Positions 334-548 of a stretch of DNA of 64,000 nucleotides are shown here, piece after piece. Both the position numbers and the translations under genes were made by a program. The notes beneath the pieces are model-generated. The model ran no database searches, was not told the origin of the DNA, and saw only the letters and a program-made list of their open reading frames with translations. The stretch covers positions 62,001-126,000 of the forward strand of contig BJHS01000001.1 in the NCBI GenBank assembly GCA_014193315.1. The letters are read 5' to 3'. Position 1 is the first letter of the stretch. The number at the start of each line of letters is the position of its first letter. This stretch comes from Verrucomicrobiota bacterium (GTDB lineage: Bacteria > Verrucomicrobiota > Verrucomicrobiia > Opitutales > UBA953).

Positions 334-482
334 GCTAGGGCTTGGGCCAGGGCTAGGGCTGGTTGATGCCAAAGTCAGCGCGACGGCAGGGGTTCACCCT
401 GCTTTCGCTTACTGGCCCTGCATGGTCTCTTGTCGCTGCCGACCTAGCTTCTTCGAGCCCAAGCCCTGGCCCAAGCCCTAGC
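334..482. repeat. Inverted repeat, 26/27-bp arms (334-360 and 456-482) around a 95-nt loop; arms are GGGNNN repeats
   Basis: gctagggcttgggccagggctagggct vs reverse complement of agcccaagccctggcccaagccctagc, one mismatch. Confidence 0.9.
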
Positions 483-548
483 CCTGGCCCACATCTTGCC
501 AGGCCTTCTTCGCTTGCCGAGGGGGCGTAGGGGCTTACGGCTTGAGGT

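Follow-up and report, generated by a model that had tools for sequence, protein, structure and literature searches.

Oppositely oriented GGGNNA repeat arrays frame intergenic gaps in a genus of Opitutales

Bacterial genomes can carry short simple repeats in the spaces between genes. Here we describe a genus-specific family of telomere-like G3-tract arrays in Opitutales that stand at the edges of intergenic gaps, their G-rich strands pointing outward from the adjacent gene. Judged by this orientation rule and by analogy with repeats of other phyla, a two-way transcription boundary would be the best-supported function, and we tentatively take it as the most likely one. Neutral repeat turnover combined with selection against unfavorable orientations is a close rival and nearly as likely.

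The family came to light in a 64,000-nt stretch of a freshwater Verrucomicrobiota bacterium (contig BJHS01000001.1, positions 62,001 to 126,000), henceforth termed the window. The window opens within the final portion of a PVC-type heme-binding CxxCH protein gene (TIGR02604/TIGR02603), which ends at 318, and argS starts at 549. The gap between them consists of a G-rich array (319–358), a loop of ca. 97 nt (359–455), a C-rich array (456–490), and a 57-nt block adjoining argS. Directly 3' of the heme-binding gene's stop codon, the G-rich array begins on the plus strand with a degenerate outer part (GGGTAGGGATGGAGCTA, 319–337), a stretch that reads AAGGGTAGGGATGGAGCTA and is additional to the left arm. 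The left arm itself, GGGCTTGGGCCAGGGCTAGGG at 338–358, contains four G3 tracts with the 3-nt spacers CTT, CCA, and CTA. The loop is assigned to no strand, is single-copy in the genome, and contains an inner hairpin (GGCAGGGGTTCACCCTGC). On the minus strand, the array at 456–490 holds six G3 tracts with 3-nt spacers (488–490, 482–484, 476–478, 470–472, 464–466, and 458–460). The block next to argS (GGCCTTCTTCGCTTGCCGAGGGGGCGTAGGGGCTTACGG, 492–548, plus strand) is conserved in relatives with and without the element. A first-pass annotation had described the two arms with their four and six tracts, a 26/27 inverted repeat around a 95-nt loop, and a position between a cytochrome-like gene and argS. 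Direct reading of the sequence bears out these coordinates and counts: the 27-nt arms at 334–360 and 456–482 are complementary at 26/27 positions (96% identity) across a 95-nt spacer (361–455), and the tracts of the right arm span 458–490. The upstream gene is the heme-binding one. A second register, 343–360 with 474–491, pairs at 18/18 positions.

The element is thus a paired, oppositely oriented simple-repeat array of the form (GGGNNA)n...(TNNCCC)n. All seven matches to GGGCYWGGGCYWGGG in the window (one mismatch allowed; 0.38 expected, reached by none of 100 shuffles) fall inside it. Its RNA is predicted to fold stably (z = -4.6). The sequence of both arms would permit a G-quadruplex, and folding of the element as a cruciform, a hairpin, or a G-quadruplex is possible.

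Beyond the window, the 2.36-Mb, 97%-complete assembly to which it belongs contains 44 matches to GGGNNAGGGNNAGGG, counted as overlapping three-tract GGGNNA matches, against 6 for a reversed control pattern. The argS relatives of this genome are freshwater Opitutales metagenome-assembled genomes such as UBA953, and four-tract arrays occur in 39 of 47 genomes of the genus, with up to 129 overlapping matches per genome. In 13 further genera of this order, GGGCTAGGGCYWGGG had no match. In a class-wide sample, more than one match was found only in genus members, and six outside genomes had one each, similar to control counts. The element is therefore one member of a dispersed (GGGNNA)n family limited to one Opitutales genus and essentially lacking elsewhere in the class. 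The count across the genome and its relatives, which the first-pass annotation had proposed, thus returned many copies, and its suggestion of a dispersed repeat holds for the arms, which recur genome-wide and genus-wide, but not for the loop. The loop had no blastn match in 44 other genus genomes and is 91–92% identical at the same place in one relative, G014; the loops of the argS element and of a second element each occur once per genome.

Spacers differ by species, the leading type being CTA in the genome of the window, GTA/ATA in G015, G016, G041, and G022, and ACA/GCA in G019. The association is strong among the matches listed (chi-square p ~ 1e-18), a value that is too small because units within one array are not independent. 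Some loops additionally contain degenerate 7-nt tandem repeats (ATACTCN, GTRCRGA, GGARACC; L103 1393–1494, L164 1980–2100, L168 3290–3370, L120 1570–1650), some of which themselves form inverted pairs, and several families of short repeats seem to abound in the genus. On one contig of G024 (L160 2020–2132 and 7037–7182), two elements have, unlike most, similar loops and outer flanks (CAAAAGTG / CACTTTTG), possibly from a recent duplication.

The placement of the arrays relative to genes follows a grammar. We collected 181 arrays from stretches around matches in the window's genome and its relatives and predicted genes by means of a model of codon usage that had been trained on the window; 15 of the 181 overlap predicted genes. 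Among 152 intergenic arrays with both neighbors, 129 direct the G-rich strand away from the nearest gene and into the intergenic space (p ~ 4e-19). The rule is obeyed at stop edges (55 vs 15) as well as at start edges (74 vs 8), in the window's genome alone (33/40, p = 4e-5), and among arrays without an opposite partner (33/39, p = 1e-5). As a consequence of this direction, the G-arm always comes first where arrays are paired, as seen in 34 of 34 close pairs; pair polarity and the gene-edge rule are interdependent. Two of the 34 are orthologous argS copies, with the window's own pair at the same site, so that the cross-species pair counts are not fully independent. Many arrays lie 0–20 nt after stop codons, and those before start codons mostly keep a distance of 40–100 nt, which would leave room for a promoter.

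These observations favor a two-way boundary. RNA polymerase leaving either neighbor would transcribe successive G3 tracts immediately beyond the gene edge, where an RNA G-quadruplex could form; the C-rich partner would be transcribed next, allowing a long hairpin to close. Tracts and hairpin together might promote the ending of transcripts or protect their 3' ends, and curb read-through from both sides, with the boundary placed outside the promoter of the next gene. The stable fold of the argS element and the C-tracts of its argS-side arm, which are largely kept across nine species beside variable spacers, are in line with such a role. Several results count against it, however. Between array and start codon, promoter-like hexamers score hardly above shuffled sequence (6.68 vs 6.45), giving no clear signal of a sigma-70 promoter. 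Convergent gene pairs are not enriched among the array contexts (tandem 98, divergent 32, and convergent 22, against a background of 127, 50, and 39), and divergent genes flank 15 of the 40 arrays in the window's genome. In addition, most scored argS loci lack a complete element (see below), and the arms of a pair are not clearly co-adapted.

Co-adaptation was assessed by comparing arms with their own and with swapped partners. Spacer triplets gave p = 0.057, and duplex energy gave p = 0.14 for cores and 0.01 with flanks, and some elements mix CTA-type spacers in one arm with GTA-type spacers in the other. The arms of a pair are hardly copies of each other and match their own partner barely better than the arms of other elements; we rejected the idea of exact inverted copies. 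Arm complementarity is mostly a by-product of the common hexamer consensus, and the almost complete match of the window's arms is the best of the set rather than typical of it. Only strict pairs were used as evidence of pairing, since loose partners (GGGN3GGG) have a high background (40/106 strand-instances vs 28/40). In the argS ortholog set, the covariation term is close to zero and three of the four pairs with two-sided changes lie inside the loop, and we therefore make no strong covariation claim.

Parallels exist in unrelated bacteria. Intergenic GGGAATC arrays occur in Xanthomonas and Anabaena/Nostoc; two species of Xanthomonas have 70 and 75 inverted pairs in convergent orientation, and the G-rich strand of the arrays is coding in the 50 nt that follow a stop and non-coding in the 50 nt that precede a start (Rehm et al. 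2015, PMC4692102). In one Xanthomonas (Xac), RNA-seq placed transcript starts and stops more commonly at repeats able to form a G-quadruplex than at the control repeats, irrespective of strand, and the former were scarcer in transcript interiors (PMC4692102), a coincidence that would support a boundary role for arrays with equal gene-edge grammar. The present arrays share with these GGGAATC, or (GGGANTN)n, repeats their dispersed intergenic G3-tract units with G-quadruplexes possible in principle, restriction to a lineage, convergent inverted pairs, strand orientation at stops and starts, and patchiness between close species. They differ in unit length, six rather than seven (GGGNNA, with the spacers CTA, GTA, or RCA by species), in their host, Verrucomicrobiota rather than Gammaproteobacteria or Cyanobacteria, and in having fewer copies in the window's genome. 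We tried the heptamer GGGANTN as unit and found the hexamer instead, which makes the family a variant of the Xanthomonas/Nostoc kind and not the identical repeat. A hexamer variant of this poorly understood kind is our best reading of its identity. The STRR heptamers of heterocystous cyanobacteria are likewise short degenerate tandem repeats, intergenic and strain-variable, and are set apart by unit length and lineage. A literature search, with subscription journals mostly outside its coverage, found no published description of the family in Verrucomicrobiota.

The argS locus records the history of one element. At the heme-gene/argS junction, 24 genus genomes were scored, of which nine carry the full element, five the C-array only, and ten neither; no single site thus needs the element. 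Turnover here is fast, with at least eight changes between the three states on a tree of argS and the upstream gene in which several branches are weakly supported. The 57-nt block adjoining argS is nearly unchanged whatever the state, and argS therefore does not require the element. The block bears no resemblance to the sigma-70 consensus and is presumably a promoter/ribosome-binding or regulatory site. Across the genus, it (CTTCTTCGCTTGCCGA, window 492–548 and orthologs) is kept even beside a different upstream gene (L024, L026, L027). Between the window's genome (G000) and G014, identity is 89% for argS (71% at its four-fold sites) and 71% for the upstream gene, and we infer a mosaic allele from homologous exchange. 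Along the argS region of this pair (L189 vs L190), the upstream gene is 71% identical and the loop and argS are ~90% identical, a step that suggests a recombination breakpoint at or near the G-array.

This turnover is what would be expected if the arrays were neutral or selfish simple repeats without positive function, grown and shrunk by slippage and moved between relatives by homologous exchange. We regard this as a serious possibility, yet short of even probability. The orientation rule would then reflect selection against G-rich leaders before starts and C-rich stretches just after stops. Array number and spacers vary between close species, C-array-only alleles look like growth from a TAAGCCC seed that is present in empty alleles too, the arrays are mainly intergenic, and the G000/G014 mosaic fits exchange. 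Neutrality would need an added cause, however, to explain why sister genera and most of the class lack the arrays and why the orientation rule is so strong, and it sits poorly with the kept C-tracts and with an equal grammar in unrelated phyla that use another unit length (PMC4692102).

A role in stabilizing the 3' end of the upstream gene's mRNA, by REP-like protection from 3' exonucleases with the second array pairing as a clamp, is unlikely. The many arrays 0–20 nt after stop codons and the strong fold would suit it, but for at least half of the rule-obeying arrays the nearest gene edge is a 5' start (74, against 55 at stops), and divergent genes flank many arrays.

Less probable still is an intrinsic terminator of the usual kind for the heme-protein gene, or an attenuator or leader of argS; a terminator and an argS leader structure were among the proposals of the first-pass annotation. 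The location between two co-directional genes would suit them. A short-loop, G+C-rich stem followed by a T run was not found at the element, whose loop is 97 nt, and the near-background contexts, with the family between divergent genes as often as other intergenic regions or oftener, are unlike what terminators would give. A search with Rfam covariance models returned no leader; its single match, of chance level, lies at the 3' end of argS. The element lies upstream of a 57-nt block that is conserved independently and kept where the element is missing or one-armed, as at 15 of the 24 loci. Together, these results argue against both an ordinary terminator and an essential argS leader.

A non-autonomous mobile element (REP/BIME or MITE), in which the arrays would serve as terminal inverted repeats, is largely refuted: filled and empty alleles at one site and dispersed copies would suit it, but loops are single-copy, arm ends and lengths vary, empty argS alleles hold 15–25 nt of other sequence without a clean junction, no target-site duplication is evident by eye at this one site, and no Y1/RAYT-type transposase was found in G000 or in array-rich G012 and G022. 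REP/BIME systems with RAYT transposases share intergenic palindromic units in many copies, whereas the present family lacks a conserved palindrome body and an associated transposase. Association with a transposase (PF01797) was rejected, as it does not track with the arrays, and a MITE was rejected for want of a conserved body. With unique loops and no tracking transposase, the family is neither a classical REP nor a MITE.

At its broadest, the two-way boundary would be a general code, in which Verrucomicrobiota, Xanthomonas, and Nostoc independently evolved G3-tract pairs that mark both edges of a gap, with species-specific spacers in the present genus as if renewed genome-wide by a common process; we consider this extension rather doubtful. 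The occurrence of an equal gene-edge grammar in an unrelated phylum with another unit argues against an accident of one lineage. The orientation rule provides a sharp, testable clue to the role of bacterial G-quadruplex repeats, and the argS locus offers natural empty, one-arm, and two-arm alleles for direct comparison.
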